A DNA stretch of 64,000 nt from Gilvimarinus chinensis DSM 19667. Its GTDB lineage: Bacteria > Pseudomonadota > Gammaproteobacteria > Pseudomonadales > Cellvibrionaceae. This document shows, in pieces, positions 2-60,823 of the stretch; position 1 is the stretch's first letter, and every line of letters starts with the position of its first letter. Both the position numbers and the translations under genes were made by a program. The notes beneath the pieces are model-generated. The model was not told the origin of the DNA. It made no database searches and saw only the letters and a program-made list of their open reading frames with translations. The stretch covers positions 186,001-250,000 of the forward strand of contig NZ_KB898706.1 of the NCBI RefSeq assembly GCF_000377745.1. The letters run 5' to 3'.

Positions 2-838
2 GGTGTCGAGTTCGAGTCCTGGTCTCATTGGTTGCCCTGTGATAGAGCCGTGACAGCAGCGAGTGAGGTTATGTCGTCGATGCCGCCGTATACGAAATCT
101 ACGGCTCAAGCGGCGGGGTGGCAGTGGCGCATCCCTTTACAGCATCGTACGGGTAATGGTTACGTGTACTCCAGCCACCATATCAGCGACGATGAAGCCG
201 CTAGCAGCTTGCTCCACCCTATACAGGGGGCGCCGCTGTCGGATCCTGCGTTATTAAAATTTGAAGCAGGTCGTCGTAAGGTCAACTGGAAAGGGAACTG
301 CATTGCTGTGGGTCTTTCCGGAGGTTTTCTGGAGCCGCTGGAATCGACGAGTATTTATCTTATTCAGGTTTCGATTCAGCAGCTTCTCAACCTATTTCCA
401 GATAAACACCCTTCTGCCCCACTTGTTGACGAGTTCAATCGCAGAATCGACCTTGAATATGAGCGAATAAGAGACTTTCTGATATTGCATTACGTTGCAA
501 ACGGTAGAGAGGGCGAGTCTTTTTGGGATGACTGCCGGCAAATGAAGTTTCCCGACTCTTTACGGGAAAAAATATCGCTGTATGCCAGTCGTGGTTACAT
601 AGACCAGTACAAATACGGTTTGTTTTCACCTTCCAGTTGGCTTGCGGTGTTGATGGGGCAGGTGGGTGGTGCGCGTGGCTACGAGCGAGTCTGTGATAAC
701 CAAAGCGTGCAGCGCCTTGCGGATCGTATGCAATCTATCAAGCATTCAATTGATTCAGGTGTGGCGGACTTAAGTTCTCATCGAGAATTTATTAACGATT
801 ACTGCAAGTCTCAAATTGGTGAGTTAGCTCATGGTTAA
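2..838 (+). CDS. Flavin-dependent tryptophan-halogenase family protein, 5' end outside window
   Basis: The frame is open from base 2, so the gene begins upstream of the window; 278 residues of the C-terminal part are visible. It holds the family signatures WSHWLPCD (substrate side), GWQWRIP (the WxWxIP motif that keeps FAD reduction and chlorination/bromination separated) and FLEPLEST, whose Glu-Ser pair positions substrate and hypohalous acid near the catalytic lysine. The lysine and the N-terminal FAD motif lie off the edge. It closely resembles the complete homologues at 2344-3834 and 51121-52608. Its stop overlaps the start of the next gene by 8 nt (ATGGTTAA), so the pair is translationally coupled. 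Such genes are common beside TonB receptors in marine glycan degraders; the substrate is unknown, and tryptophan itself is only the family label. Confidence 0.9.
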   Translation, partial: GVEFESWSHWLPCDRAVTAASEVMSSMPPYTKSTAQAAGWQWRIPLQHRTGNGYVYSSHHISDDEAASSLLHPIQGAPLSDPALLKFEAGRRKVNWKGNCIAVGLSGGFLEPLESTSIYLIQVSIQQLLNLFPDKHPSAPLVDEFNRRIDLEYERIRDFLILHYVANGREGESFWDDCRQMKFPDSLREKISLYASRGYIDQYKYGLFSPSSWLAVLMGQVGGARGYERVCDNQSVQRLADRMQSIKHSIDSGVADLSSHREFINDYCKSQIGELAHG

Positions 839-2330
839 AAGTATTTGTGTGGTCGGTCGAGATGCCGATGCGTGGATCACGGCGAGAGTGTTGCAACGTT
901 TTCTGGGGGCTAATGCGCTGGTCTCTCTGTCCATAGTCGAGCTGCCGTCTGACATTGGTGAGCAAGAGGTCTATCCCAGTATTCCCTCTGTGCGTGGATT
1001 GCATAAGTTGCTGGGGTTGTCTGAATCTGACCTTATTGCCAACCTTGGCGCTGTGAACTCTCTGGGCAATCGGTTTGTTGATTGGTCGGCGGTGGGTGAC
1101 TACTACCAAGTGTTCGATACTTACGGGTTGCCCATCAATGACATTGACTTTGTGCAGTACTGGGCTCGTGGCAGACAAAAAGGGTTGCAGGTTCCCTATC
1201 ATGAATTTTCGTTGGCGGTTGCCGCCGCGAAGAGAAATAAGTTTGTCCTGCTAAATGAGCAAACCTCTCTATTCAGCAAAGCATCTTATAGTTTTAATAT
1301 TCCCGCGCTGCCCTATTTAAAAAGAATAGCCACAGAAACTGTGTCACAAGGTATAACAAGATACGCCGGTGATATTGCTAAGGTGGTTGTTGAATCGGGG
1401 GAGCTTCGCCAGTTGGTGTTGGCGGATGGTCAGGTGGTGTCGGCAGACTTATTCATAGACGCCAGCGGCCCTAAGGGCGAGCTGATTACTAGCTTGGATC
1501 AGAGTGCTGATGCCTCGCTGAATGATCTTTTCCCGTTATCGTCAAGTGTTCTCGCGTCGGCGGATAACCTGCCAACCATTCCGTCGTACAATCATTGCAT
1601 TGCCTGTGACCGGGGTTGGCTGGGTGTGTACCCAACCAAAGACAAGGCAGCGTTAGTGTTTAATTACGATCCTGATCAAGTTGTGCCGGATGAAATACCG
1701 GCTATTTTGCAGCGGCTAAGTGGTATGTCAATGAGAGATGGGGTTGTAAAAAGGCACAAGCTAATGCGTAGGGGAAGGCCCTGGGTAGCAAACTGTATTG
1801 CGGTTGGTGGCGCTGCGGCGAATCTTGACTCTGTCAATGGTGTGCAGTTGCACGTGCTGCACCTCACGCTGTCTTACCTGATGGCGCTTTTCCCTGTTGA
1901 TGATAATTTTGAACAAGAAAGGCGCAAGTACGCACAAAAAGTAAACTCCCATGTTGATCGTATTGTGGATTTTCAGTTGGGGCACTATGTGCTAAATGGC
2001 CGTGATGGCGATCCTTTGTGGCAATCTCTAAAAGCAAAGCCGTTAACACCAGGGTTGCGGCAAAAGTTATCGTTGTTTTCTTCGCGAGGCGTTCTCTCTA
2101 TGCAAGAGGATGAAACCTTTCAGGAAGAGGACTGGTATGCCCTTTTTTGTGGTAATGGAATTTTGCCACAAGGGTATGATTTGCAGGTGGCTAATTTAGA
2201 TGAACATGAGCAGATTAAGGAATTTCAAAAGATGCTGAGTTTTATCGCCCATGAAGCGGATCAAATGCCGGATTTGTCGGTACACTTAGGGCTCTCAAAT
2301 AATGAAAACTTTACCGGGTCCATGTTCTGA
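831..2330 (+). CDS. Degenerate halogenase-family paralogue, probably non-catalytic
   Basis: A 499-residue protein collinear with the neighbouring halogenases but stripped of their motifs. The FAD-binding GGGTAGW is GRDADAW (residues 9-15). The VGEATIP segment is absent. The catalytic-lysine position aligns with Ser77 in AVNSLGNRFVDW. WxWxIP is replaced by GWLGVYP. The Glu-Ser pair of FLEPLEST aligns with Asn-Gly in NLDSVNGVQ. Surrounding framework is kept (ADLFIDASGPKG, NCIAVGG, a C-terminal LxGLS-like end), and the frame is intact over full length, so this is a maintained protein rather than a decayed pseudogene. It starts inside the previous gene (8-nt overlap) and is followed after 13 nt by an intact halogenase, suggesting a partner or scaffold role for its neighbours. 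That role is inference. Confidence 0.8.
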   Translation: MVKSICVVGRDADAWITARVLQRFLGANALVSLSIVELPSDIGEQEVYPSIPSVRGLHKLLGLSESDLIANLGAVNSLGNRFVDWSAVGDYYQVFDTYGLPINDIDFVQYWARGRQKGLQVPYHEFSLAVAAAKRNKFVLLNEQTSLFSKASYSFNIPALPYLKRIATETVSQGITRYAGDIAKVVVESGELRQLVLADGQVVSADLFIDASGPKGELITSLDQSADASLNDLFPLSSSVLASADNLPTIPSYNHCIACDRGWLGVYPTKDKAALVFNYDPDQVVPDEIPAILQRLSGMSMRDGVVKRHKLMRRGRPWVANCIAVGGAAANLDSVNGVQLHVLHLTLSYLMALFPVDDNFEQERRKYAQKVNSHVDRIVDFQLGHYVLNGRDGDPLWQSLKAKPLTPGLRQKLSLFSSRGVLSMQEDETFQEEDWYALFCGNGILPQGYDLQVANLDEHEQIKEFQKMLSFIAHEADQMPDLSVHLGLSNNENFTGSMF

Positions 2331-2343
2331 AGGGGGAGCAAGA

Positions 2344-3834
2344 ATGATTAATCGCGTAGTCGTTTTAGGTGGCGGTACGGCTGGTTGGATGACTGCCGCT
2401 GCACTGGCTAAATCCCTATCCGGAGGGCCGGTGTCTATTACCCTGGTGGAGTCGGAAGCCATAGGTACGGTAGGCGTGGGTGAGGCAACAATTCCTCCCA
2501 TTATGATTTATAACAACGCCCTGGGTATTTCTGAAGCTGAGTTTGTGCGGGCGACGAAAGCAACCTTCAAGCTGGGAATCGAGTTTGCGAACTGGAAACG
2601 CAAGGGCGTTTCCTATTTTCATCCATTCGGTATGATTGGCTCCGATATGGATGGCATTAGCTTTATGCACTATTGGCTACGCTGGAGAAAAAACGGAGGG
2701 GCAGCGGATTTTCTCAACTTCAATGCAGAAGCCTGCGCGGCAAGAGAGAAAAAGTTTGCCTGGGTGGAAGAGGAACCAGGCCCCAAAATGTTGCCCGATG
2801 TGAATTATGCCTATCATTTTGATGCTGGGCTCTACGCCAAGTTTCTACGCGAATTTGCAGAAGCGCGAGGTGTTCAGCGTATTGAGGGGGCGGTTTGCGA
2901 TGTGGCGCAGAACCCGGACTCGGGGGATATTACCAGCTTGACGCTAGAGGGTGGTCGGCGTATCGAAGGGGATCTTTTCATAGACTGTAGCGGCTTTCGA
3001 GGGCTTTTGATCGAGAAAACCTATAATGCCGGATACGAAGATTGGAGTCATTGGTTGCCCGTGGACAGTGCAGTAGCCGTGCCTTCGGCCTCTTCGGGTG
3101 AGTTGCTGCCCTACACTCGTTCCATCGCTCATGAGGCGGGTTGGCAGTGGCGCATTCCGTTACAACATCGGGTTGGCAACGGTTATGTTTATTGCAGCAA
3201 ATACATCACTGATGATATGGCCCGTTCGGTATTGCTTAATAACTTGGACGGTGAGGCATTGGCTGAACCTCGTTATCTTCGTTTTAAAACGGGGGTGAGA
3301 AAGAAGTCTTGGGTGAATAATTGTATCGCCGTGGGGCTTTCGGCGGGTTTTTTAGAACCGCTTGAATCGACCAGCATTCATCTTATCCAGAGAGCCATAC
3401 ATAAGATTTTAGCTATGTTTCCTCGGCGTACAATTCAGCCCTGTTTGGTTGAGCGATTTAATCAGGAAATGTATCAAGAATATGATGAAGTGAAAGATTT
3501 TCTGATTGCGCATTATGCCATCACTGAGCGAGATGACAGTCCGTTTTGGCAATATGTAAGGAATATGGCGGTGCCGGACTCATTGCGGCAGAAGCTCGAG
3601 GTGTTTAAAGAGCGTGGTGAAGTTCTTATTAATAAACACGACATGTTTCGGGAAACCAGTTGGTTTTCAGTGCTGATGGGGCAGGGCGTTGAGCCAGAAG
3701 GCTATCACCCTGTGGCCGACACTATATCGGACGAGCAGCTGCGCATGAGAATGACGCATATTCGCCATGCGGTGGAAAAGCGTGTTTCTATGCTGCCTAA
3801 GCATGGGGATTTTGTGAAGAAACACTATATGTGA
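2344..3834 (+). CDS. Flavin-dependent tryptophan-halogenase family protein, complete
   Basis: A 496-residue protein with all expected landmarks: GGGTAGW at residues 9-15 for FAD, VGVGEATIPP near 44, the catalytic-lysine segment ATFKLGIEF with Lys76, W267-Q-W-R-I-P, and FLEPLESTS with Glu341-Ser342. Members use reduced flavin, oxygen and halide to halogenate electron-rich aromatics, commonly indoles. The flavin reductase partner is not in this window. ATG 2344 is preceded by AGGGGG at good spacing; an in-frame upstream ATG at 2302 lies inside the previous gene and was not chosen. It is the last gene of the three-gene run and is followed by a weak hairpin/T-run before a convergent kinase gene. 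Substrate unknown; bromination would be plausible in a marine setting but cannot be read from sequence. Confidence 0.9.
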   Translation: MINRVVVLGGGTAGWMTAAALAKSLSGGPVSITLVESEAIGTVGVGEATIPPIMIYNNALGISEAEFVRATKATFKLGIEFANWKRKGVSYFHPFGMIGSDMDGISFMHYWLRWRKNGGAADFLNFNAEACAAREKKFAWVEEEPGPKMLPDVNYAYHFDAGLYAKFLREFAEARGVQRIEGAVCDVAQNPDSGDITSLTLEGGRRIEGDLFIDCSGFRGLLIEKTYNAGYEDWSHWLPVDSAVAVPSASSGELLPYTRSIAHEAGWQWRIPLQHRVGNGYVYCSKYITDDMARSVLLNNLDGEALAEPRYLRFKTGVRKKSWVNNCIAVGLSAGFLEPLESTSIHLIQRAIHKILAMFPRRTIQPCLVERFNQEMYQEYDEVKDFLIAHYAITERDDSPFWQYVRNMAVPDSLRQKLEVFKERGEVLINKHDMFRETSWFSVLMGQGVEPEGYHPVADTISDEQLRMRMTHIRHAVEKRVSMLPKHGDFVKKHYM

Positions 3835-42303: not shown

Positions 42304-43779
42304 CTAAAACTCCGGCAACTCATCCAGGGTAATTACTCGCTCGTGCTCATACACATGTTTTTTGTGAACGTCGGTGTTGTAGTACTCGCCGGTCCAGAAG
42401 TTGTTTGAGTGATCCTCAGTAGTGTCCAACGCACCGTCATTCCACACCATAAACCACAGCCACCAGGCATTATCAGCGGCCATGGCATCCGGGTCGGGTA
42501 TGTTGCTGTTCTCACTCAGGGCGACCATCTTTTCCCGGTGCGGGTAGGCTTTGGTGACATCGTATAAGGTTTTTTGCGACTCATAGTTTTGCGCACCATC
42601 GTAGATATCGGTGCTGACAATATCGACAACGTCATCGCCCGGATACCAGATGGCGTTTTGCCCGTTCCACACCCAAATTAAATTCGTTAGCCCGTGGTAG
42701 TTGGTTAAGCGTTCAAACAGGTAGCGCCACAACAGGGTTTGCGCGTAGGCAGCAGGTACGCCATCGGTGCGTGCGCGGCCCCACCAAAACCAGCCACCGG
42801 CGGCTTCGTGCAGTGGGCGCCACAAAACCGGCACGTCGGCGTTTTCCAGCTTTTTAAGCTCGCCTGCAATCAGGTCTACATCGTGCTCAATGGCGGCAAA
42901 GGCGTCGCTTTCGGTATCCAGCGCACCATCCTTAACCGGAATGGTAAAACGGGTGTTTTTACTGGCATCTTCCTGATTTGCGTAAAAGTTTTTACTATCA
43001 CCTGACGGATCGCGCCAGTGCCAGGCAAAGGTGATAAGACCGCCTTTGTTCCAGTATTCAATGGCTTCTTCGGTTTGTGTCAGGCCCGAACCATTGGCGT
43101 AGGCACCGTAATTCATAAAGTCATAACCCATAAGCGCGGGTTCTTTACCGGTGGCGTCTAGAACGCGCTGGTGCATATCAATTTGATCAGCCCAGGTTAA
43201 ATCCATTTGTCCGCTCAGCATTTTGCTGCCCCATACGCTGTGCAGGTAATCAAACACTTTTTGGCTGGTGGCGCTGGCATCGGGGGTAACGAGTGAGGTG
43301 CTCAGCGCAGTTTGGCTTTTTTCATTGTTGCCCGGACAAAAGGTGCGCGCGATGCACACGTCGCCGTTATTGAATTGCCAATTACTGTTGTTATCCGAAT
43401 TGCTCGCACAATAATTAATTTCTTCTGCACCTACCTTGCAGTGATCAAATTCACCCACGCCCGGATCGGCAGCGGACTGGTAAATCACACAGTTGTGGCC
43501 GTTTTCCCAACCCCAGCCGTTGGCCGATTCGCTGTAGCGACAATAAGGGCTGCCGTTGTTGGCAGCGTTTGGAATTAAACCCGCCACAGAGGCCGTCGAG
43601 CTGCTTGAGCCGGTACTGTCACTGCTGTCGGTCGAGCTGCTTACACTGCTTGAGAGGTCTGAACTGCTGCTTGAGACGCTTGGTGGAGACGTCGGGGCAG
43701 GTTCACTGCCACCGCTGCTGCCGCAAGCGGTCAGGTATAGGGCGCTGAGCCCCAGGTACAACATTGCTTTTATTTTCAT
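42304..43779 (-). CDS. GH26 beta-mannanase lipoprotein with CBM10-like modules
   Basis: 491 residues. A lipobox LTAC (Cys19) anchors it, followed by a Ser-rich linker (about 27-63). Two Cys-rich segments resemble CBM10: GWGWENGHNC (88-97) and NWQFNNGDVCIARTFC (133-148). The GH26 catalytic domain follows (about 170-480). The acid/base is Glu325 in WRPLHEAAGGW and the nucleophile Glu423 in VALSENSN. It likely hydrolyses beta-1,4-mannan at the cell surface. Surface lipoprotein anchoring with CBMs is typical of Saccharophagus-type glycan systems. Monocistronic. Confidence 0.93.
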   Translation of the reverse strand: MKIKAMLYLGLSALYLTACGSSGGSEPAPTSPPSVSSSSSDLSSSVSSSTDSSDSTGSSSSTASVAGLIPNAANNGSPYCRYSESANGWGWENGHNCVIYQSAADPGVGEFDHCKVGAEEINYCASNSDNNSNWQFNNGDVCIARTFCPGNNEKSQTALSTSLVTPDASATSQKVFDYLHSVWGSKMLSGQMDLTWADQIDMHQRVLDATGKEPALMGYDFMNYGAYANGSGLTQTEEAIEYWNKGGLITFAWHWRDPSGDSKNFYANQEDASKNTRFTIPVKDGALDTESDAFAAIEHDVDLIAGELKKLENADVPVLWRPLHEAAGGWFWWGRARTDGVPAAYAQTLLWRYLFERLTNYHGLTNLIWVWNGQNAIWYPGDDVVDIVSTDIYDGAQNYESQKTLYDVTKAYPHREKMVALSENSNIPDPDAMAADNAWWLWFMVWNDGALDTTEDHSNNFWTGEYYNTDVHKKHVYEHERVITLDELPEF

Positions 43780-47986: not shown

Positions 47987-50900
47987 ATGAGAATGAAACA
48001 GAATTTCAAACGTAAACTCATTGCGTCGGCCATTGCCTCATCGGCACTGGCAACTTTCAGCAGTGGGGTGCTTGCCCAAACAAATGCCAGCCAAGCAGAC
48101 GAAGATGTAATGCTGGAAGAAGTGGTTGTTACCGGTATTCGTGCCAGCCTTGAGCGCTCGATGGACTTAAAACGTGACGCCAGTGGCGTGGTGGATGCGA
48201 TCTCAGCGGAAGATATCGGTAAGTTCCCGGATACTAACCTCGCGGAATCTCTGCAGCGCATTACCGGTGTGTCCATTGACCGCCGTAATGGAGAAGGCTC
48301 TAAGGTTACTGTTCGCGGCTTGGGCCCGGATTTTAACCTTGTGCTTCTTAACGGACGCCAAATGCCGGGAGCTTCGTTAGAAGACACGGTCGCATCTGGC
48401 TCCCGTTCTTTTGATTTTGCCAACATTGCTTCTGAAAGTGTGTCGGCGGTTGAGGTGTATAAAACCTCGCGTGCTGACGTGCCGCCGGGTGGAATGGGGG
48501 CGACAATTAACATTCTGACACCACGTCCTCTCGATTCTGGTTTTGTGGCTTCAGTGGGGGTGAAAGGTGTATATGATGAGTCTTCTAATGATCCATCAAT
48601 GGCCCCCGAGATATCGGGTATCTATAGCAATACCTTCGCGGACGGCAAAATCGGTATTGCGGTTACCGGTAGTTATCAGGAGCGCAATGGTGGGTCTGCA
48701 AATGCGCAGGTTGGTACAGGCTGGCGTTCCTTTGATGAGAATGGCGGTTGGGGCGGTGTAAACTTCGATGCTGGCAATCACCGCAATCCTCCTTCGGCGG
48801 ATGATATTTACTCAACACCTCAGCAGTTTGGCTACGGATTTACCGAGTTTGAACGCACCCGTACAAACGGTCAGTTAACCCTGCAGTATGCGCCCACGGA
48901 TGATCTGACGGCGACGGTAGATTACACCTACAGCGAAAACGAGGTGAACTCTACTTATAACGACATTGGCGGTTGGTTTAATTTCGCGGGCCAAAGTACC
49001 GTATTTACCGATTTTGATTCACCGTCTGTACAAACACCGGTGTTGTACGCCGAGGACTTAACGGGTGCCGACCTGCCGATGGGGGTGGGTGAGCAATCGT
49101 CATTATACGAAAACAACTCTGTAGGTCTGAATATTGAGTGGAAGCCCGTTGAGCCGCTCACCTTAACACTGGATGCCCACAGCTCAAGCGCGGAAGCGCG
49201 TCCGGGCAATGAGTTTGGTAACAGTGTGGGTATTGCCGTCTCGGCTTATATTCGCGACCATCAAATCGTTGATTTTCGCGGTGATATGCCGGTCCTGATT
49301 TTGGATACGCTGAACCCGGATGGCGGGTCTGACTTACGAGTAGAAGACTTACATGTGTCAGGCAGTTATTTCCGTAACAGCCAGATGAAGCATGATATCG
49401 ATCAGGTTCAATTGGATGGCCAGTGGGAATTCAACGATGATGTAAGTTTGCTGTTTGGGGTGGCCCATACCAAAAGTGAATATTCCTCGGCTTTCTCTAA
49501 TGTCCAGCGCGAAACCTGGGGCGGGCTTGGTGAGGCCGGGTTGCTAGATGAAGCCTGGTTTAACGAAGAGACCATTCTGGATCGTTTCAGCGGGGATTAT
49601 GGTCAACTGAGTCAGGAAGATGCTAACTTTTTAGGCGGCACCAACACCGAGCCATTTAATCAGCGATACTCGTTCGATTTTTATGCGATCCGTGATTTCG
49701 CTGCGCAAAATCTTGACGACGGTGCAGGCCCTGCCGAGTGTGCCGATGGTTCAACCTGGTATTGCGCGCAGGCACCGAACCAGTTTAATGAGATCAACGA
49801 AGAGTCCAGCTCCGCTTTTGTGCAGCTGAATTACGACTCCGAGTGGGGCCATATGCCTGTAGGGGTAAACGTTGGGTTACGTTACGAAGAGTCTGAGGTA
49901 GACACTCCCGCCACGGCACAGTCCTATGGGCCTATCGAGTGGTTGTCCGCCAATGAATACACCATGCCCGAAGAGGGCGATCCTGTTGTGGTGCAGGATT
50001 CAGGTGAATATGACTTCTTCTTACCATCGATTGATTTCCGTATTGAGCCGCTTACCGACGTTGTCTTGCGTGCCTCATACAGTGAGAGTATCGCCAGGCC
50101 GAATTGGTTGGATTTACGCGGCGGCACCACCTATAACACGGGGGTACGTATTGAGGGGGCAACGGCTTCTCGGGGCACGCCGGGGCTTGATCCTTATAAG
50201 TCCGATAACATCGATTTGTCAGCCGAATGGTACTACGATGACGCGAGTTACGTATCGATAGGCTATTTCCAAAAAGAGGTCTCTAACTTTATTGGCTCTC
50301 GTGTAGTTCCGGAAGACGGCACTCTAGAAAATACGCCGCACCCAGGATTAGGGCTTCGTGCGCAGGCTGCAGAGGCAGCGGGTGCTGAGGGTGCCGTTGA
50401 AATTCGTGAATACATATACGCCAATTACGCTGATCCAGATACTGCCTATCTAGATGCAAGCGGCAATATTGTTATTGTCGGTATCGCAGGCGAAGACCCG
50501 AATACCCCAATCAATGTGACTGAGGTTGCGAACAGTGATCAAACTGTCGATATCGACGGTATTGAGTTCGCAGTTCAGCATAACTTTTGGGATACCGGTT
50601 TTGGGGTTATCGTCAACTACACCATGGTAGACGAAAGCACAGAGTTCGATAATCTCACTCTGAATGATCCGCAGTTTGCCATTACCGGTGTAAGTGATAC
50701 GGCTAACCTCGTGGGTTTCTATGAGGGGTACGGCTTCCAGGCTCGTATCGCCTATAACTGGCGTGACGAGTTCTTGGCCTCTACTGCTACTGGTACGGGT
50801 AATAACCCCGTATTTGTCGATGAGTACGCGCAAATTGATATGAACGTCAGCTATGATGTGACTGATAATTTGTCCGTATTTTTCGAGGGTTTAAACCTTA

Positions 50901-51001
50901 CGGAGGAAAACGGCAGAACCTTTGGCCGTGCTGACGAGCAAACCATCGGTTACTACGAAGGATATGCCCGTTATAACATCGGGGCGCGGTACGCCTTCTA
51001 A
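47987..51001 (+). CDS. TonB-dependent receptor (Xanthomonas-type, glycan uptake)
   Basis: 1004 residues, an outer-membrane beta-barrel. A signal peptide (ASAIASSALATFSSGVLA) is followed by a TonB box (DEDVMLEEVVVTG), plug domain (DTNLAESLQRITGVSIDRR, VTVRGLGPDFNLVLLNGRQ) and a barrel ending in an aromatic residue (ARYAF). The MDLKRDASGVVDAISAEDIG stretch is characteristic of the Xanthomonas/Caulobacter TonB receptor family, often carrying oligosaccharides. The likely ligand is a beta-glucan fragment because of the GH16 gene close by; this is inference. A strong terminator separates it from the following halogenase. Confidence 0.95.
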   Translation: MRMKQNFKRKLIASAIASSALATFSSGVLAQTNASQADEDVMLEEVVVTGIRASLERSMDLKRDASGVVDAISAEDIGKFPDTNLAESLQRITGVSIDRRNGEGSKVTVRGLGPDFNLVLLNGRQMPGASLEDTVASGSRSFDFANIASESVSAVEVYKTSRADVPPGGMGATINILTPRPLDSGFVASVGVKGVYDESSNDPSMAPEISGIYSNTFADGKIGIAVTGSYQERNGGSANAQVGTGWRSFDENGGWGGVNFDAGNHRNPPSADDIYSTPQQFGYGFTEFERTRTNGQLTLQYAPTDDLTATVDYTYSENEVNSTYNDIGGWFNFAGQSTVFTDFDSPSVQTPVLYAEDLTGADLPMGVGEQSSLYENNSVGLNIEWKPVEPLTLTLDAHSSSAEARPGNEFGNSVGIAVSAYIRDHQIVDFRGDMPVLILDTLNPDGGSDLRVEDLHVSGSYFRNSQMKHDIDQVQLDGQWEFNDDVSLLFGVAHTKSEYSSAFSNVQRETWGGLGEAGLLDEAWFNEETILDRFSGDYGQLSQEDANFLGGTNTEPFNQRYSFDFYAIRDFAAQNLDDGAGPAECADGSTWYCAQAPNQFNEINEESSSAFVQLNYDSEWGHMPVGVNVGLRYEESEVDTPATAQSYGPIEWLSANEYTMPEEGDPVVVQDSGEYDFFLPSIDFRIEPLTDVVLRASYSESIARPNWLDLRGGTTYNTGVRIEGATASRGTPGLDPYKSDNIDLSAEWYYDDASYVSIGYFQKEVSNFIGSRVVPEDGTLENTPHPGLGLRAQAAEAAGAEGAVEIREYIYANYADPDTAYLDASGNIVIVGIAGEDPNTPINVTEVANSDQTVDIDGIEFAVQHNFWDTGFGVIVNYTMVDESTEFDNLTLNDPQFAITGVSDTANLVGFYEGYGFQARIAYNWRDEFLASTATGTGNNPVFVDEYAQIDMNVSYDVTDNLSVFFEGLNLTEENGRTFGRADEQTIGYYEGYARYNIGARYAF

Positions 51002-51120: not shown

Positions 51121-52608
51121 ATGACATATCCCGTAAAGAAAATCGTGATTGCCGGTGGCGGCACGGCGGGTTGGATGGCCGCGGCGTTATTGGGTAAGAC
51201 GCTGGGTAAGCGTTATGAGATTGTTCTGGTTGAGTCTGATGAAATACCGACCGTGGGTGTTGGTGAGGCGACTATCCCTCCTTTGCAGACTTTTCATAAA
51301 ATGCTCGATGTGCCAGAACGAGAGTTTATGTCAGCAGTTAATGCCACTTTTAAGCTGGGGATTTCTTTCGAGAATTGGAAAGAGCTGGGGCATCGATATA
51401 TTCACTCTTTCGGGTATGCAGGGAAAGATTGCTGGGCGTGCCAGTTTGTACACTTTTGGTTGGCGGCAAAACGTCGCGGCATTAACTTTCCTTATTCAGA
51501 TTACTGCGCCGAGTTGTTGGCTGCAGAAGAGTCCAAGTTTGCGGTTCTCTCAAAGGCTCCAATGAACTACGCTTACCACCTCGATGCGGGGTTGTACGCG
51601 AAATATCTTAGAAAAATAAGTGAAGCGGCGGGCGTTATTCGAGTAGAAGGTAAAATAAATACCGTGAGTTTAAATCATGACTCCGGCTTTATCGACTCGT
51701 TGGTGCTGGAGTCGGAACAGCGAGTGTCGGGTGATTTTTTTATTGATTGCACGGGGTTTAGAGGGCTACTGATTGATGGCGCTCTGAATGTTGGGTTTGA
51801 GGATTGGTCTCACTGGTTGCCCTGTGATTCCGCTTTGGCTGTGCAAACGCAAATGCATGAGGCGCCTGTCCCCTACACGCGCTCTATCGCGCATAAAGCC
51901 GGTTGGCAGTGGCGTATTCCGCTGCAAACGCGGGTGGGCAACGGGTTAGTTTATTCGAGTAAGTTTTGGAATGATGGTGAAGCCGAAGCCACGCTAATGG
52001 ATAATCTTAGCGGTGATGCGATCAATGCTGCAAAAATAATTCGGTTTCGTACGGGAACGCGGCGTAAACACTGGCACAAAAACTGTCTCGCGTTGGGGTT
52101 GTCGAGTGGGTTCTTGGAGCCTTTGGAGTCGACCAGTATCCATCTCATACAAAAATCATTAGTACGGTTAGTCCAGCTGTTAAGTGTGGACGGTATTAAT
52201 CTCAGTAGTGAGAAGGAATTTAACCAGCAGACAAAAGTGGATGTTGAACGTATACGTGATTTTATTATTCTGCATTACAAAGTTACCGACAGAAGTGATT
52301 CTGAATTCTGGCGCTATTGCCAGAATATGGAAATTCCTCCGGCTTTAGAACAAAAGATCAACTTATTCCGGGCTAACGGCACGGTATTTAAGGTGGATAA
52401 TGAATTGTTCGGTGAGGAGTCCTGGGTTCAGGTAATGATGGGGCAAGGAATAATTCCCAGTTCTTACCATCCGGCCGCTGACCTTTTATCGGATCAGGAA
52501 ATGACAGATTTTATGGCGGCGATACGCTCTTCTATGCATAGGAAAGTCCAGGGGCTTCCTTCTCATGGCGACTTTTTGAACCACTACTGCCGTTATGGTA
52601 ACAGCTAA
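51121..52608 (+). CDS. Flavin-dependent tryptophan-halogenase family protein
   Basis: 495 residues, complete. FAD motif GGGTAGW at residues 12-18, VGVGEATIPP near 45, catalytic Lys78 in NATFKLGISF, GWQWRIPLQ, and FLEPLESTS with Glu336-Ser337. Closest in the window to the homologues at 2-838 and 2344-3834. It follows a TonB receptor and precedes an AraC regulator, the usual setting of these genes in glycan loci of Alteromonadales, Cellvibrionales and Caulobacterales, where the true substrate is unknown. AGGTTGAAGAG lies just ahead of the ATG. Confidence 0.92.
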   Translation: MTYPVKKIVIAGGGTAGWMAAALLGKTLGKRYEIVLVESDEIPTVGVGEATIPPLQTFHKMLDVPEREFMSAVNATFKLGISFENWKELGHRYIHSFGYAGKDCWACQFVHFWLAAKRRGINFPYSDYCAELLAAEESKFAVLSKAPMNYAYHLDAGLYAKYLRKISEAAGVIRVEGKINTVSLNHDSGFIDSLVLESEQRVSGDFFIDCTGFRGLLIDGALNVGFEDWSHWLPCDSALAVQTQMHEAPVPYTRSIAHKAGWQWRIPLQTRVGNGLVYSSKFWNDGEAEATLMDNLSGDAINAAKIIRFRTGTRRKHWHKNCLALGLSSGFLEPLESTSIHLIQKSLVRLVQLLSVDGINLSSEKEFNQQTKVDVERIRDFIILHYKVTDRSDSEFWRYCQNMEIPPALEQKINLFRANGTVFKVDNELFGEESWVQVMMGQGIIPSSYHPAADLLSDQEMTDFMAAIRSSMHRKVQGLPSHGDFLNHYCRYGNS

Positions 52609-52668: not shown

Positions 52669-53817
52669 GTGGGCTCAAGAATTTTTAATCTTCACGATGT
52701 CTTTCTAATTATCACCATTTTTGAGGTGCTACTACTGGCGGCGTATCGCAGCGTGCACCGCGATGAAAATACCGCTAAAGGTAACTGGTTAACCGTATTT
52801 CTGCTGCTGGTGGCGGTGGATATGGCGACCAACCTGATTATGTGGAATCCGGACTTTCCGTTGCAGGGCTGGCCGCGCGAGCGCCTTTTGGCGCTATTGT
52901 TTACCTTTAGTCACTTTGCTCGTGGCCCGCTGTTTTATTTTTACGTACGCTCTTTACTGCAGGACCAAAAGCCGTTGCGCCACAACGATTGGTGGCATGG
53001 GGCGCCGGTGCTGATCGCATTACTCGCCGTTGTGTGGGTTGGGGTGACTACTACGGATTTGCAGTCACGGGCAGACCTTGATTTGGCGGATAAGTTGGCC
53101 AGTGGTTTGTGGTATTTCTCGAGCCTTGTGTCGGTGGCCTACGCTTGTTGGTGTGTGCTGTTAATAAACCGCTCGGTGCGGCAGGCGAAGCAACGCTTAT
53201 CCAGTTTGCCTTCGTCAGAAATTGCCTGGCTGGTGGTATTAAGCCTGTGCTTTTTGGTGAGCTGGGGGTGGTCCGTACTGGTCATTTTAATGGCTGATTG
53301 GGTGGGTGGTTCGGTGGCCGATGCGGTGGGCACATCGCATAATTTTATTCGGTTTTTACTGCTTAACGGGCTCATTTTTTACAATCTTGCATGCACATGG
53401 ACGCTGCACAGTAAGCTCTCTGGCGATGACACGCCCGCAGAGACTAATCCGGTATCCGCGGGCGTGCTGCAGGCCATTGAATCAGGGGTGCGGCAGCATA
53501 AGCTGCACTTACAGCCCAGTATTAATATTGAGGAATTTTCCGAGCGGATCGGCTTGTCGCCAAGGGTGGTGTCTCAGGCCATTAACCGTGAACTGGGAAC
53601 GCGTTTTTTTGAGTTTATTAATCAGCACCGAATCGACCACGCTAAACAGCTTTTGAGTGATCCCGCCTGTGATGGTATGACCGTGCTAGATATTTTGTTG
53701 GCCTCTGGTTTTAATAATAAATCTTCCTTTCATCGTTTTTTTAATCGTCTTGTAGGCATGTCTCCTTCTGCTTATCGCCGTCAGAAACCTAAGGTGGATT
53801 TTCGCGCGTCGCAATAA
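52669..53817 (+). CDS. Membrane-spanning AraC-family regulator
   Basis: 382 residues. Residues about 8-245 form seven hydrophobic segments (FLIITIFEVLLLAAY; WLTVFLLLVAVDMATNLIMW; LVVLSLCFLVSWGWSVLVILM and others). The AraC DNA-binding domain is C-terminal (about 280-375: NIEEFSERIGLSPRVVSQAI, ILLASGFNNKSSFHRFFN, GMSPSAYRRQ). The GTG start is supported by its paralogue at 59678, which begins MEAYIFNFHDV against MGSRIFNLHDV here. A membrane-embedded AraC protein could sense a periplasmic or lipid signal directly. It lies between the TonB/halogenase genes and the GH16 gene, its likely targets. Confidence 0.9.
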   Translation: MGSRIFNLHDVFLIITIFEVLLLAAYRSVHRDENTAKGNWLTVFLLLVAVDMATNLIMWNPDFPLQGWPRERLLALLFTFSHFARGPLFYFYVRSLLQDQKPLRHNDWWHGAPVLIALLAVVWVGVTTTDLQSRADLDLADKLASGLWYFSSLVSVAYACWCVLLINRSVRQAKQRLSSLPSSEIAWLVVLSLCFLVSWGWSVLVILMADWVGGSVADAVGTSHNFIRFLLLNGLIFYNLACTWTLHSKLSGDDTPAETNPVSAGVLQAIESGVRQHKLHLQPSINIEEFSERIGLSPRVVSQAINRELGTRFFEFINQHRIDHAKQLLSDPACDGMTVLDILLASGFNNKSSFHRFFNRLVGMSPSAYRRQKPKVDFRASQ

Positions 53818-54192: not shown

Positions 54193-57100
54193 ATGACTAA
54201 ACGTAATTGGCGTACATGTAGCCGCCCGCCGTTAATGGCAGGAGCTGCCTTGGCGACTGCTCTGCTTTCAGTAACCACACAGGCCCAGCAAGTCGGGCAA
54301 CTACTGTGGGAGGATAATTTTAATTCTTTAAATTCCGAGCATTGGAATGTGGTTACCGGTAATGGTTGCCAACTCGGGCCGAATTTGTGCGGTTGGGGCA
54401 ATCAGGAGCTGGAAAACTATCAGGCCGATAATGTCTCGATTGAGCCTGTACCGGGCGAGCCCGGTAACTCGGCGCTGGTACTTGAAGCGCGCGCCGAAAC
54501 TGTCGATGGCAGTGCCTTTACCTCGGGTAAGCTCGACAGCCAAAACTCAGTGGCCATTCAGTACGGCATGATTGAGACCCGCATTCGCGTGCCTAATTTG
54601 GATACGGGCCTGTGGCCCGCCTTCTGGTTACTGGGTACCAGTACCGCAAGCTGGCCCGCCAAAGGCGAAATCGACATGATGGAGATGGGCCATCGCCAGG
54701 AGGAAATTGATAAATTTTACCCCGGCACCAGCGTAAACAACTTTGTCGGTGGTAACGCGATTTTTTACGCCGAGGGCGCCTGTGTGGAGGGCAACCCGAC
54801 TTGTGCGGCCATGTCTGCGTGGGAGACCGATAACGCCTATGTGTCGTCTACCCCCATGAACGATCGGTTTATTACCTATCGGCTGTATTGGACCGAAGAT
54901 GCCCTGCGGTTTACCGCAGTCGATAACGGCGTTGAATACGATATGTACGACGCGCCCATAAGTATTACCGAAGAGTCTGAAGAATTTCGTGCCCCCTTTT
55001 ATTTGCTGATGAACTTGGCTGTTGGCGGTAACTTTACCGACGCACAGCAAAATAGCGAAGTAACGGCACCTTTGCCGGCCAAGATGTACATCGACTATGT
55101 GCGTGTGTACGAGTACGACGGCCAAGGTGAAGTTATTCTGGGCAACACATCGCAACCCGAAGTGGGCACCTTTGGGGTGTTTACCGACAATACCCCCACC
55201 AGCAATAAACTGGAGGCGGGTTTGAGCTCCGATGTGTATATCTGGAGCACGGGTTCTCTAGCCGGGGGCAGTGAAGCACCTGCCGAAGGCAGTAACGTGA
55301 TCAGCTGGGATTACACCGCCCCCGGACAGTGGTTTGGCGGTGGTATTCAAGCGCGCCAGGCGGTGAACTTAAGTAACTTTGAAAACGGTCAACTGACGTT
55401 CCGTATCAAGGTGCCCGCCGACGTTTCTTTTAAAATTGGTATCACGGATACCTATACCAATGAGCACTACATCAGTTTCCCCGCCGGTGAAACCAAATAC
55501 GGCTTGGTACGCAACGGTCAGTGGGGCAGGGTAACCATTCCGGTTGCTGACTTGCGTGGCTCTCTGGTGGCGATTCAGTCACTGTCGTACCCCTTCGTGA
55601 TCTTAAATGGCGACGATGCCATGCCCGCGGCGAATTTCTCTATCGCACTGGATGACATTGTGTACCAAGGCGGCGGTGATGCCGCTGATGACGACGGCGA
55701 TGGCGTTGCGAATCAGAACGATAGCTGCCCCAATACGCCTGCGGGAACCAGTGTTGATAGTTCTGGTTGCGCCGTGTCGGTGCCGACAGACTCTGATGGT
55801 GATGGGGTGAACGACAGCGATGATGCCTGCCCGAATACCCCGACAGGCGCGAGTGTGAACGCCCTGGGTTGTGCCACCAATAGCGTGCGTTTACAGGCTG
55901 AGGACTACCAGAGTTATTACGATGCCGATGCCGGTAACAGCGGCGGCGCTTACCGTACGGACGATGTAGACATTGAAGCCAGTTCCGACACCGACGGCGG
56001 TTACAACGTGGGTTGGACGACAGCTGGAGAATGGCTGGAATACGCCACCGATTTGGCCGCTGGAAGCTATGAGATCACCGCTCGTGTTGCCTCGCTGAAC
56101 GGCGGCGGTGCCTTGAGTGTTGGCATTAACGGAGCCTATACGGCCAGTCGCAATATCGATAGCACTGGGGGTTGGCAGAGTTGGTCGAGCGTAAGCCTGG
56201 GTACGCTTGATGTCGCGGCGGGTAGCGCCAATGTACGTGTGAACGTCGACGCGGCGGGCTTGAATCTCAACTGGATTAGTCTTGAGAAGATAACGGTTGA
56301 TACCGACGGCGACGGAATTGGCGACGCCAACGACCTTTGTCCGTCGACGGCCGCAGGCAGCAGCGTTAATGGCGCAGGCTGTACGACGGCAGGTGTGCAG
56401 TTACAGGCGGAAGACTACCTCAATTACTACGACACCACCCCCGGTAACGACGGGGCCGTTTATCGCAGCGATGATGTGGATATCGAGGCGACCACGGACA
56501 CCGGTGGGGGCCATAACGTGGGCTGGACGGCCGCCGGTGAATGGCTTGAGTTTAACGCTGAGCTGGCCGCTGGCACCTATGAGGTGACCGCACGCCTGGC
56601 TTCTCAGGGGGCCGGGGGCAGTATCAGTGTCAGCGCGAATGGCGCCTCAACCGGTGCAATATCGGTGGGCGATACCGGCGGTTGGCAGAGCTGGACAACG
56701 GTAAACCTGGGGTCAATCACTGTCGCCAATGGCGTGGCAAATGTTCGCCTGAATGTCGAAAGTGCCCCGTTTAACGTGAACTGGCTGGCCCTAACACCCG
56801 GCACCGGCGTGAGTGATAGCGATGGCGACGGTGTGAGTGACGGCGCGGATGCGTGCCCCAACACCCCGGCAGGCGCCAACGTGGACAGCGCCGGTTGTCA
56901 GGTGTTTGGTGACAGCGATGGCGATGGCGTTACAGATGACAAAGATCTGTGTGCCGGAACGGCTGCGGGAGCCCAGGTTGATGCCAGCGGTTGTGTGCTA
57001 ACCAACAATAATGGCGGTGGTGGCAGTTATGGCGCCACCGAGCAGGCGGGCGGTGCCGTTGAATTTTATCTCAATACGCCCGATTGGGCCGATTTGCACT

Positions 57101-59340
57101 ACAGCATTAATGGCGGCGGCCAAGTGAACGTAGCTATGGTTCAGAACGCCGGTCGTAATAGTTACTTGGTGAGCGGGTTAGCCAGTGGTGATGTAGTGGA
57201 ATACAGTTTTACCTACTGGGATGCAAATCTGGGGGGCGCTGTGGACTCACCTTGGGCCAGCTTGACTCTGGGTGGCGGTTCTAATCCAGGCCCAGACCCC
57301 GATCCGGACCCGACCCCCAGCGACAGTGATGGCGATGGTGTTGTCGATGCACAAGATCAGTGTCCAGGCACACCAGCTGGTACGAATGTAGATGTTAACG
57401 GCTGTGCGGTGACCTTGCCGCCCGGTGCTCAAGTCGTGCCTTTGTTTGATCAAAACACCCCCCTTGAGCCGGTGATCAGTTACGACCGCGGCGACGCCTT
57501 GGTCACGCGCTTTGCCGACCGCGCTCGCGATCGACACGCTAAAGAAAACCACTTCCAGGCGTATGACCATTACCTGACGTTCTATTGGGAAGATCGCACC
57601 GCGGCCATTGAAATTATCGATTATGTGGCGAAAGGAGGTGACTCCATTCGCATGAATGTCCGTACCGAGTTCAAGTTGTCCGATACCGAAGCGGAAAACC
57701 GCTGGTGGTATGAAGGTTTACACACCTTGGCGCAGTACTGCGGCAACGGGGTGATGCAAACCAACGACAACGTGAACTACTGGAAAGAAGAAAGTTGGAA
57801 CTGTCGTGAAGGCCGCCCAATCCAAGTGGGCGATAAGCTGGAGTTTGAAATCAGCCAGTTTCTGGATGCGGGTGTGCCCCGTGGCCGCGCCAATTATTAC
57901 GGCACCACCTACCTGTACATTGTGGGTGAAGGCTTAGTGCCCTGGGATGTGACGGACAAGGTGGAGTTTGTATCGGGCAATTATTTGCAGCGCGATTCCA
58001 TCCCTGTACCCGAGAAAGCCCGCATGGGCGGCGATACGACCCTGCACGTGCAGATGACCGCCGAGCCCGATGGTCATTTTCAGCAAATGGCGACCAACCT
58101 GGGTTATGAAAATGGTCAACCATTTGTATTGGGGCGGCGGGTGCATCACACCTCGTTTGTGGACGGTACGCACGATGAAAATGCCGAAAACGGTGTGTTT
58201 GCACCTATGGTTGGCAAATCCAGTACTCACTACATTCACGAGCGCTGCTCCGGTTGTCATGAAAGAAATGGGCGCGCTTCAGTGGCCGCTGACGATGAGC
58301 CGTTGGACCGTTGGGTTTTTAAAATCGGTGATGCCAATGGCAATCCAGATCCACTGCGTGGCCGCGTGTTGCAGCCGTCCAACAGCGGTGGGGTGATTGG
58401 TGAAGGCTCCGTGGCTATCGACTTTTGGACCGAAAGCGGTGGCTTGCGCTCGCCCAACTACGCCTTTGAAACTGGCACGCCAGCGACCTTTTCGGCGCGC
58501 TTAGCGCCTAACCTGAACGGTATCGGTTTGCTGGAGGCCATTCCTGAGTCGGCCATACTGGCGCTGGAAGATCCGAATGATGCCGACGGAGATGGCATTT
58601 CGGGGCGCGCCAACCGCGTGACCGACCCCGAAACTGGGCAAACCCGCCTGGGCCGCTTTGGTTACAAGGCCGCTACCGCCAGCGTTAAGCATCAGGTGGT
58701 GCAAGCGTTTAATACCGATATGGGCGTTATGACGACGGCAATGCCGTCACCTGACTGCGGTGTACAACAATCCGACTGCGGTCCATCCGGTTCTGAAATA
58801 GCAGACACCGAGGTGGACTACCTGGTCAAGTACATCTCGTTGCTCGGTGTACGCCCGCAGCGCAACTACAATGATCCGGCGGTATTGAGCGGTGAGCAGA
58901 CCTTTGCGCAAATCGGTTGTGCCGATTGCCACACGCCCACGCACCAAACCAGCCAGTATCATCCGTTGGCCGAATTGCGTGATCAAACCATTCGCCCTTA
59001 TACCGATATGCTGCTGCACGATATGGGCCCTGGCCTGGCGGACAACTTAGGCGAAGGTGAGGCCAGTGGCAGTGAATGGCGTACCGCGCCCCTGTGGGGT
59101 GTGGGTTTATCGGCCTGTGTGACCGGGGGTGTTGCGGGCAATCATGGTTGGGATGGGTTTGGCCTGGATGGCCATGAGTATTGCACGCCCGACGCGAACT
59201 TCCTGCACGATGGCCGCGCGCGCACCATTGATGAAGCCATTCGCTGGCACGGTGGCGAGGCGTTAGCCTCTAAGCAATCTTACGATGCGCTTTCGGTTGG
59301 TGCTCGCAATAACTTGTTGGCGTTTATCGAATCCTTATAA
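54193..59340 (+). CDS. Multidomain GH16 beta-glucanase with CBMs and a C-terminal di-haem oxidoreductase
   Basis: 1715 residues, exported (signal peptide about 1-32). GH16 domain to about 313 with Glu159-Ile-Asp161-Met-Met-Glu164 in GEIDMMEMG as catalytic set, of the laminarinase type. A jelly-roll-like domain (about 317-495) is followed by TSP3-like Asp-rich repeats (DSDGDGVNDSDDACPNTP type, six in all), two CBM6-like modules (about 565-698 and 734-867, each starting LQAEDY), a CBM56-like module (about 947-1026) and a Pro/Asp linker. From about 1077 the protein changes: an uncharacterised region, then a di-haem oxidoreductase (DUF1111-type) with CxxCH motifs at Cys1352-Cys1355-His1356 and Cys1576-Cys1579-His1580. 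The chain stays in one frame through the junction, so the fusion is real in this sequence. Predicted to bind and cut beta-1,3-glucan while carrying redox haems. Confidence 0.9.
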   Translation: MTKRNWRTCSRPPLMAGAALATALLSVTTQAQQVGQLLWEDNFNSLNSEHWNVVTGNGCQLGPNLCGWGNQELENYQADNVSIEPVPGEPGNSALVLEARAETVDGSAFTSGKLDSQNSVAIQYGMIETRIRVPNLDTGLWPAFWLLGTSTASWPAKGEIDMMEMGHRQEEIDKFYPGTSVNNFVGGNAIFYAEGACVEGNPTCAAMSAWETDNAYVSSTPMNDRFITYRLYWTEDALRFTAVDNGVEYDMYDAPISITEESEEFRAPFYLLMNLAVGGNFTDAQQNSEVTAPLPAKMYIDYVRVYEYDGQGEVILGNTSQPEVGTFGVFTDNTPTSNKLEAGLSSDVYIWSTGSLAGGSEAPAEGSNVISWDYTAPGQWFGGGIQARQAVNLSNFENGQLTFRIKVPADVSFKIGITDTYTNEHYISFPAGETKYGLVRNGQWGRVTIPVADLRGSLVAIQSLSYPFVILNGDDAMPAANFSIALDDIVYQGGGDAADDDGDGVANQNDSCPNTPAGTSVDSSGCAVSVPTDSDGDGVNDSDDACPNTPTGASVNALGCATNSVRLQAEDYQSYYDADAGNSGGAYRTDDVDIEASSDTDGGYNVGWTTAGEWLEYATDLAAGSYEITARVASLNGGGALSVGINGAYTASRNIDSTGGWQSWSSVSLGTLDVAAGSANVRVNVDAAGLNLNWISLEKITVDTDGDGIGDANDLCPSTAAGSSVNGAGCTTAGVQLQAEDYLNYYDTTPGNDGAVYRSDDVDIEATTDTGGGHNVGWTAAGEWLEFNAELAAGTYEVTARLASQGAGGSISVSANGASTGAISVGDTGGWQSWTTVNLGSITVANGVANVRLNVESAPFNVNWLALTPGTGVSDSDGDGVSDGADACPNTPAGANVDSAGCQVFGDSDGDGVTDDKDLCAGTAAGAQVDASGCVLTNNNGGGGSYGATEQAGGAVEFYLNTPDWADLHYSINGGGQVNVAMVQNAGRNSYLVSGLASGDVVEYSFTYWDANLGGAVDSPWASLTLGGGSNPGPDPDPDPTPSDSDGDGVVDAQDQCPGTPAGTNVDVNGCAVTLPPGAQVVPLFDQNTPLEPVISYDRGDALVTRFADRARDRHAKENHFQAYDHYLTFYWEDRTAAIEIIDYVAKGGDSIRMNVRTEFKLSDTEAENRWWYEGLHTLAQYCGNGVMQTNDNVNYWKEESWNCREGRPIQVGDKLEFEISQFLDAGVPRGRANYYGTTYLYIVGEGLVPWDVTDKVEFVSGNYLQRDSIPVPEKARMGGDTTLHVQMTAEPDGHFQQMATNLGYENGQPFVLGRRVHHTSFVDGTHDENAENGVFAPMVGKSSTHYIHERCSGCHERNGRASVAADDEPLDRWVFKIGDANGNPDPLRGRVLQPSNSGGVIGEGSVAIDFWTESGGLRSPNYAFETGTPATFSARLAPNLNGIGLLEAIPESAILALEDPNDADGDGISGRANRVTDPETGQTRLGRFGYKAATASVKHQVVQAFNTDMGVMTTAMPSPDCGVQQSDCGPSGSEIADTEVDYLVKYISLLGVRPQRNYNDPAVLSGEQTFAQIGCADCHTPTHQTSQYHPLAELRDQTIRPYTDMLLHDMGPGLADNLGEGEASGSEWRTAPLWGVGLSACVTGGVAGNHGWDGFGLDGHEYCTPDANFLHDGRARTIDEAIRWHGGEALASKQSYDALSVGARNNLLAFIESL
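55690..57410 (+). repeat. Six TSP3-like Asp-rich repeats in the GH16 protein
   Basis: Six units of about 30 codons (near 55690, 55789, 56299, 56812, 56911, 57322) share D-x-D-G-D-G-V, a Cys-Pro-x-T-P centre and a closing Gly-Cys. They probably bind calcium and stiffen the linkers between CBM modules. Each unit holds two cysteines able to form a disulfide. Confidence 0.85.
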
Positions 59341-59677: not shown

Positions 59678-60823
59678 TCAAGCGCTTTTTTCCTGGGTCT
59701 GCTGTTTGCGATATTCCGATGGTGACATGCCCACTAAGCGTTTAAAGAAGCGATGAAACGCAGACTTACTGTTAAACCCGGCCTGCAGCAGAATATCCAG
59801 AATAGTCATATTGCTGTGGGCGGGGTCGGCGAGCAGGCGCTTGGCTTCCTCTACCCGGTAAGAGTTCATAAACTCAAAGAAGTTGGTGCCAAAGTGTTTG
59901 TTAATCACCCCGGAAACATCACGCACAGGTAAGTCGATGCGGTTGGAGAACTCTTCAATATTCAGGTTCTGCTCCAGATATAACTGTTCTACCTCCATGC
60001 CTTTGCGAACTTTATCAATGGCGCTGTCGTCGGGTTGCTCCGGTGGAGCCTCTTTGTTGGCGATTGGCTTGGTGGTCAATACCCGATGGGCATAGGCGGC
60101 ACTGTAGGCAAACAAGCCGTTAATCAGCACAAAGATAACGTAGTTTTCAGATATGCCTAAGTAGTTCGACATTTGCTCCGAGACGAACTGCGCGCTGATA
60201 TGAACAAACAGCGAAAAGGCCCAGCTGAGCAAAAAACCAATGGTTAGCACCACCAGCCAGCCCGGTTCACTAGTGGAAATGGATGAATATTGATCTTTCA
60301 AAGACCGGTAATAGCGCTGCACCAAATACACCGATGCCAGGCCATAAATAAAGGGAATTACTTTCGAGCTGTGCCAGAGAAAGTTCACCACCGCAGTCTC
60401 AGTCTCGGTTTGTTGCTCACCGCGCCAGCGCATGGCGTCGCTGTCCAGTCCAAACACAAACAGCAAAAGCCAGCTAACGGCCAATGGAAGAAGGTGCAGC
60501 AGGTGCGCACGCTTTAATTTAAACTCTTGCTCAGTCAGCGACGCCACGTAGAAATAGAGTGCGGGGCCTTTTATTAAGGTGGCTAACAGCAGTAAATAGG
60601 GCACCAGATTTAAGTCGAAGAAGTCGGTGGTGTGTACCATGTCGTTCCACAGTAACAGCACGCATGCACTGTGAATGCTGGTGCAGAGCAAAAAGCCGAT
60701 TAGCATGGTGCTGGAAAGGTGACGGCCGGTGGGTAGAGCCCACTGGAACAATGCCAGCATGATGCATTCGATGATCGTCATAAATAAAACGACATCGTGA
60801 AAATTGAATATATACGCTTCCAT
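59678..60823 (-). CDS. Membrane-spanning AraC-family regulator, paralogue of the gene at 52669
   Basis: 381 residues. The N-terminal seven-helix membrane region (VVLFMTIIECIMLALFQWAL; MLIGFLLCTSIHSACVLLLW; LVVLTIGFLLSWAFSLFVHI and others) and C-terminal AraC domain (NIEEFSNRIDLPVRDVSGVI; ILLQAGFNSKSAFHRFFK; GMSPSEYRKQ) parallel the 52669 gene almost position by position. Recognition helices differ in the first HTH but nearly agree in the second (FNxKSxFHRFF), so they may bind related sites. A GTCCCAC half-site lies upstream on the minus strand (60904-60910). Convergent with GH16. Confidence 0.9.
   Translation of the reverse strand: MEAYIFNFHDVVLFMTIIECIMLALFQWALPTGRHLSSTMLIGFLLCTSIHSACVLLLWNDMVHTTDFFDLNLVPYLLLLATLIKGPALYFYVASLTEQEFKLKRAHLLHLLPLAVSWLLLFVFGLDSDAMRWRGEQQTETETAVVNFLWHSSKVIPFIYGLASVYLVQRYYRSLKDQYSSISTSEPGWLVVLTIGFLLSWAFSLFVHISAQFVSEQMSNYLGISENYVIFVLINGLFAYSAAYAHRVLTTKPIANKEAPPEQPDDSAIDKVRKGMEVEQLYLEQNLNIEEFSNRIDLPVRDVSGVINKHFGTNFFEFMNSYRVEEAKRLLADPAHSNMTILDILLQAGFNSKSAFHRFFKRLVGMSPSEYRKQQTQEKSA

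Follow-up and report, generated by a model that had tools for sequence, protein, structure and literature searches.

Xyn65 of Gilvimarinus xylanilyticus HB14, published in 2022, joins a glycoside hydrolase (GH) to a di-haem oxidoreductase (DHOR) module in the order GH26-CBM31-CBM6-Big-DHOR (CBM, carbohydrate-binding module). It accounts for 82.3% of the 1,3-xylanase spectra in the secretome, and its authors state that DHOR had previously not been found in GHs (PMC9638140; here and below, statements on published work refer to excerpts of the cited papers). Among the matches listed in a search of the open-access literature, whose coverage ends at subscription papers, this was the sole GH-DHOR paper. 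Cbp2D and Cbp2E of Cellvibrio japonicus are secreted redox proteins that carry CBMs and haem domains with CxxCH, and they are important for growth on cellulose (PMC8981238, PMC12542752). Beta-1,3-glucan is the substrate of laminarinases of families GH16 and GH81 that carry CBM56 or CBM6, such as PsLam81A, in which CBM56 increases activity on linear, insoluble glucan (PMC9609564). Here we analyse a gene of Gilvimarinus chinensis DSM 19667 located at positions 54193-59340 (+) of a 64,000-nucleotide stretch of contig NZ_KB898706.1 (positions 186,001 to 250,000; the whole stretch is called the window). Its product is a real, conserved GH16-DHOR fusion, and its class is a variant of the known proteins that combine carbohydrate-active enzyme and redox modules.

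The gene is a single unbroken frame of 1715 aa with an ATG start, closely preceded by GGAG as seen by eye, and its GC content is 0.50-0.64 per 300 bases along the whole length. The modules follow in the order GH16, Exop_C-like, TSP3, CBM6/35, TSP3, CBM6/35, two TSP3, CBM56, TSP3, CBM56-like domain and DHOR. A first-pass annotation made from the sequence alone had read a GH16 enzyme, two CBM6-like modules, a CBM56-like one, six Asp-rich repeats and a domain with two CxxCH motifs; Pfam and motif searches agree with this order, and we regard the identity of the parts as almost certain. Three elements go beyond that annotation, namely the Exop_C-like module, the predicted CBM56-like fold and P0002, another multi-module DHOR protein encoded by this genome.

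The last 634 residues (1082-1715) form a unit hereafter named the cassette, consisting of an N-terminal domain (residues 1083-1271; 57439-58005) and the di-haem DHOR module (residues 1272-1715; 58006-59337). The di-haem domain expected at the C-terminus was matched by Pfam as DHOR (PF06537) at residues 1435-1715 (E 9.7e-61, 206 bits against a cut-off of 22), over positions 214-499 of the 499-position profile; the first part of the profile has no Pfam match in the protein. The haem motifs CSGCH (residues 1352-1356; 58246-58260) and CADCH (residues 1576-1580; 58918-58932) are invariant in 31/31 aligned cassettes and in 26/26 aligned DHORs, where they occupy conserved places, and lie within the peroxidase-fold part of the predicted model, as the first-pass annotation required of a haem domain. 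The Pfam match and this invariance rule out a chance occurrence of CxxCH. A conserved HDM (residues 1609-1611; 59017-59025) may provide a distal ligand. The predicted fold of the DHOR module is that of the di-haem peroxidase/MauG superfamily; CCP_MauG (PF03150) is absent from the Pfam families matched in the protein at E up to 0.01. For the N-terminal domain (searched as 57439-58350), no Pfam family, CBM_56 included, was found at the same threshold, and structure prediction suggests a CBM56-like fold at about residues 1103-1244. A sequence search against solved structures returned mainly weak cytochrome matches, the best being a designed cytochrome c555 trimer, and the NCBIfam matches of the protein were far below their cut-offs.

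The junction is not the product of misassembly or a frameshift, since 16 other distinct proteins have GH16 and the cassette in a single frame. By BLAST, GH16 is present in 18 of 122 cassette-type frames (one a duplicate) and shares a frame with the cassette in 17 of the 77 distinct full-cassette proteins, the window protein included; the same domain order recurs in other genomes. The rows listed by the search of the same family include 14 whose open frame reaches 1500 aa or more. Every one of them carries GH16, which corresponds to at least 12 of 144 genomes, a lower bound since shorter frames were only sampled. Outside the family, the combination was found in a Colwellia metagenome-assembled genome and in Pseudoalteromonas caenipelagi; in Aliiglaciecola lipolytica it occurs with a GH16 that is divergent. 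The cassette tree was made quickly, from a sample in which long frames are over-represented, and has some long branches; GH16 is present in 17 of its 77 rows. On this tree, the GH16 label requires 9 changes, 8 of them forced by starred branches, against 15.4 in shuffles, none of 500 being as low. These label changes rule out one recent, lineage-specific fusion as the whole story. Because GH16 and cassette identities correlate (Spearman 0.75 over all pairs of 16 proteins, pairs that are not independent, with the divergent GH16 of L082 left out), an old fusion followed by repeated GH16 loss appears to fit better than many gains.

The cassette itself is more widely spread. A match was obtained in 106 of the 144 same-family genomes at E 0.001, some in the DHOR part only, and in 62 at an E of 1e-120 or below (a list compiled by hand, which includes a few fragments on short contigs). 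A scan of named collections confirmed at least 591 relatives, of which 80 were kept, among them records of Planctomycetota, Verrucomicrobiota, Myxococcota and Fibrobacterota. Many of the 80 align only from cassette residue 120-270 onward, so they either lack the N-terminal domain or no longer resemble it there. Pfam analysis of 72 N-terminal parts, a sample favouring long frames, identified CBM56 in 29, F5/8 type C (CBM32-like) in 24, CBM6 and CBM35 in 21, TSP3 in 18 and PA14 in 2; GH16 was found in 13 by Pfam and in 17 by BLAST. Judging from these counts, binding modules are therefore the common companion of the cassette and GH16 the variable one. An apparent fusion with an AA12 dehydrogenase (TrAA12 match in 1/72, L065) was dropped, as the match spans only the profile tail (393-442 of 463). 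PF03640, a "secreted repeat of unknown function", stands directly before the cassette in 19/72 parts (e.g., L043, L079, L087, L094). Two adjoining cassette genes with differing front parts were seen at L055:7447-14389 (-), L070:7600-13288 (-) and L112:7748-11809 (+). A further CBM-DHOR group, partly with a different N-terminal domain, comes from Burkholderiales and Rheinheimera (L111, L115, L116, L120, L121, L123 and similar). Its DHOR proteins have long N-terminal parts, and those that were scanned (L111, L116, L123) carry two F5/8 type C modules.

Upstream of the cassette, the protein begins with a Sec-type signal-peptide-like N-terminus, recognised by eye (about residues 1-32; 54193-54288). 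The GH16 module (residues 28-312; 54274-55128) matches PF00722 with 34.1 bits against a cut-off of 22; the related SKN1/KRE6 model was also matched. The catalytic site read in the first pass is present as EIDMME, an E-x-D-x-x-E motif at residues 159-164 (54667-54684). Residues 313-492 (55129-55668), which have no Pfam match in the window protein, are similar to the Exop_C regions of two proteins of the glucan-enzyme kind that adjoin homologues, at 31% (108 residues, E 4.5e-9) and 33% (98 residues, E 4.8e-7). The two CBM6/CBM35 modules, both found by Pfam, lie at residues 588-695 (55954-56277) and 759-868 (56467-56796), and the CBM56, the only one matched in the genome, at residues 946-1019 (57028-57249; 81 bits against a cut-off of 27, E 7e-23). 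Pfam also matched TSP3, and six Asp-rich TSP3-like repeats were counted: 1 and 2 (residues 499 and 533; 55687-55830), 3 (residue 703; 56299-56340), 4 and 5 (residues 875 and 907; 56815-56952) and 6 (residue 1044; 57322-57363). This set of modules suggests a beta-1,3-glucanase of the laminarinase type.

Like Xyn65, the window protein unites, by Pfam, a GH, CBMs and, at the C-terminus, a DHOR within a single chain. The two come from the same genus, and Xyn65 is secreted, as the window protein appears to be, but the catalytic module of Xyn65 is a GH26 acting on 1,3-xylan rather than a GH16. Cbp2D and Cbp2E differ further, as they are described with CBM2, a YceI-like X158 and the small cytochrome domains X183/X132, act on cellulose and contain neither GH nor DHOR. 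YceI and DUF1587 had no Pfam match in the window protein, X158, X183 and X132 being outside the models searched. The first-pass interpretation, which took GH16 and di-haem proteins as known separately, is partly supported: the GH16-DHOR fusion is real, but its kind is not new, given the GH26-DHOR protein of 2022 and the CBM and cytochrome domains of Cbp2D. The laminarinases with CBM56 or CBM6 share the beta-1,3-glucan catalytic and binding modules but are described without a haem module. DHOR (PF06537) proteins of about 480 aa have the domain, both haem motifs and the conserved HDM and HDG sites in common with the window protein, but no CBM. With bacterial di-haem cytochrome c peroxidases and MauG, the module shares two c-haem motifs and the predicted fold, and it differs from them in its missing PF03150 match and its extracellular, CBM-linked context.

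P0002 (C4; 1673 aa; L004:11229-16250 (-)), the genome's second protein with a DHOR, is of the Xyn65 type, with CBM31, CBM6, Big and DHOR found by Pfam. GH26 is not listed by Pfam for it; this putative label follows from the architecture of Xyn65 and from our reading of the front part. Its calculated mass is 178.5 kDa, or about 175.5 kDa without residues 1-27 (a guessed cleavage), against 176.6 for Xyn65. Near full-length matches (93-95%) occur in two more genomes of the genus, which makes 3/8 with its own. P0002 and the window DHOR share 33% identity over 257 residues, and the N-terminal domain of the window cassette had no BLAST match in P0002. Since P0002 has WDL at the HDM site and an extra Met in front of the HDG site, haem ligation may differ between the two proteins. 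Near its gene and on the same strand, L004:7422-8867 (-) encodes a protein of about 480 aa with one CxxCH (CQECH, by eye) and no Pfam match at an E of 0.01 or below.

We tentatively propose, at somewhat less than an even chance for the whole including the laminarinase assignment, that the protein is a glucan-anchored di-haem oxidoreductase in the same chain as a secreted beta-1,3-glucanase. The chain would leave via Sec, receive its haems from the Ccm system and cross the outer membrane via a secretin; the genome contains CcmE and five secretin matches. The CBMs would keep the protein on beta-1,3-glucan, GH16 would cleave the glucan chain, and the di-haem module would handle a peroxide-level oxidant at the glucan surface. 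Most likely it would act as a peroxidase, either clearing H2O2 or employing it in the oxidation of something retained at that surface. Redox chemistry at the glucan had been suggested in the first pass; the fold match strengthens its peroxidase variant, and the role is still one that we infer. A much bolder version, in which cassettes are widespread, unrecognised carbohydrate-anchored di-haem oxidases acting directly on beta-1,3-glucan or chain ends, a haem counterpart of lytic polysaccharide monooxygenases (LPMOs) whose GH16 and GH26 versions couple oxidation and hydrolysis, seems improbable to us.

The first pass had also suggested electron supply to an oxidative enzyme. The haems could pass electrons to copper enzymes at the polysaccharide surface, and the protein would then serve AA10 LPMOs as electron donor or by tuning peroxide. 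Such a part has been proposed for Cbp2D/E of Cellvibrio, and Cbp2D has a c-type cytochrome domain able to reduce LPMOs (PMC8981238). The genome has two AA10 matches, and AA10 occurs in 53/62 cassette genomes against 37/82 other genomes of the family (odds 7.2, Fisher P 7e-7, not corrected for kinship), although both may simply follow a polysaccharide-eating life. However, no AA10 was detected in 9 of the 62 cassette genomes, including G044, a GH16-DHOR genome listed as 100% complete. Moreover, the CBMs of the window protein indicate beta-1,3-glucan, which AA10 enzymes are not known to cleave. The peroxidase/MauG fold also exceeds the needs of a mere carrier, and a review, in the excerpt available, doubts that such proteins serve LPMO feeding alone (PMC10154616). 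We consider this partnership possible but unlikely. More doubtful still is a MauG/MbnH-like modifier, whose di-haem site would oxidise aromatic residues of modules in its own chain or of a partner protein, rather than peroxide or glucan as such. A DHOR module that has given up redox catalysis and serves in binding or stabilisation is about equally improbable. This last idea is raised in the domain discussion of the Xyn65 paper, the only place where a word search of that paper found haem; Xyn65 made in E. coli BL21(DE3) hydrolyses 1,3-xylan (PMC9638140), and the WDL of P0002 in place of HDM points the same way. Against it, the invariance of the haem-motif residues in cassettes from several phyla is hard to explain without haem.

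The gene environment includes, by Pfam, a TonB-dependent receptor (47987-51001 (+)), a tryptophan-halogenase family protein (51121-52608 (+)) and an AraC-type regulator (52669-53817 (+)) upstream, and another AraC-type regulator downstream (59678-60823 (-)). Three further consecutive frames at window positions 2-3834 resemble the tryptophan-halogenase family by eye. A GH26 protein with a Ser-rich linker is encoded about 10 kb upstream (42304-43779 (-)), and about 7 kb past the DHOR gene, just beyond the window, lies the gene of a 774-aa protein (L006:6291-8615 (+)) in which many CxxCH were seen by eye. The genome assembly (4.07 Mb, 18 contigs) has 10 GH16 matches in 8 frames. Neighbours at 118 loci were clustered, and Pfam was run on one example per cluster. 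GH1 and a LacI regulator were found at L042-L045, GH3 in six loci and a GH16-Exop_C protein in 17, a neighbour set that fits beta-glucan use. Short DHORs (L128-L156) have an imelysin-like neighbour in 20/118 loci and a DUF1513-like one in 8.

According to a 2023 review, much is still undiscovered in the extracellular redox chemistry of bacteria on polysaccharides (PMC10154616). The cassette offers a defined handle on this chemistry, as a conserved 634-residue unit usually placed behind sugar-binding modules, with fusions of the GH16 and GH26 types known. Its relatives make up a large class, so far hardly studied, of haem proteins bearing sugar-binding modules. Laminarin-type glucans are a large marine carbon pool, and should the cassette act as a catalyst on glucan, it would represent a new auxiliary activity towards them.
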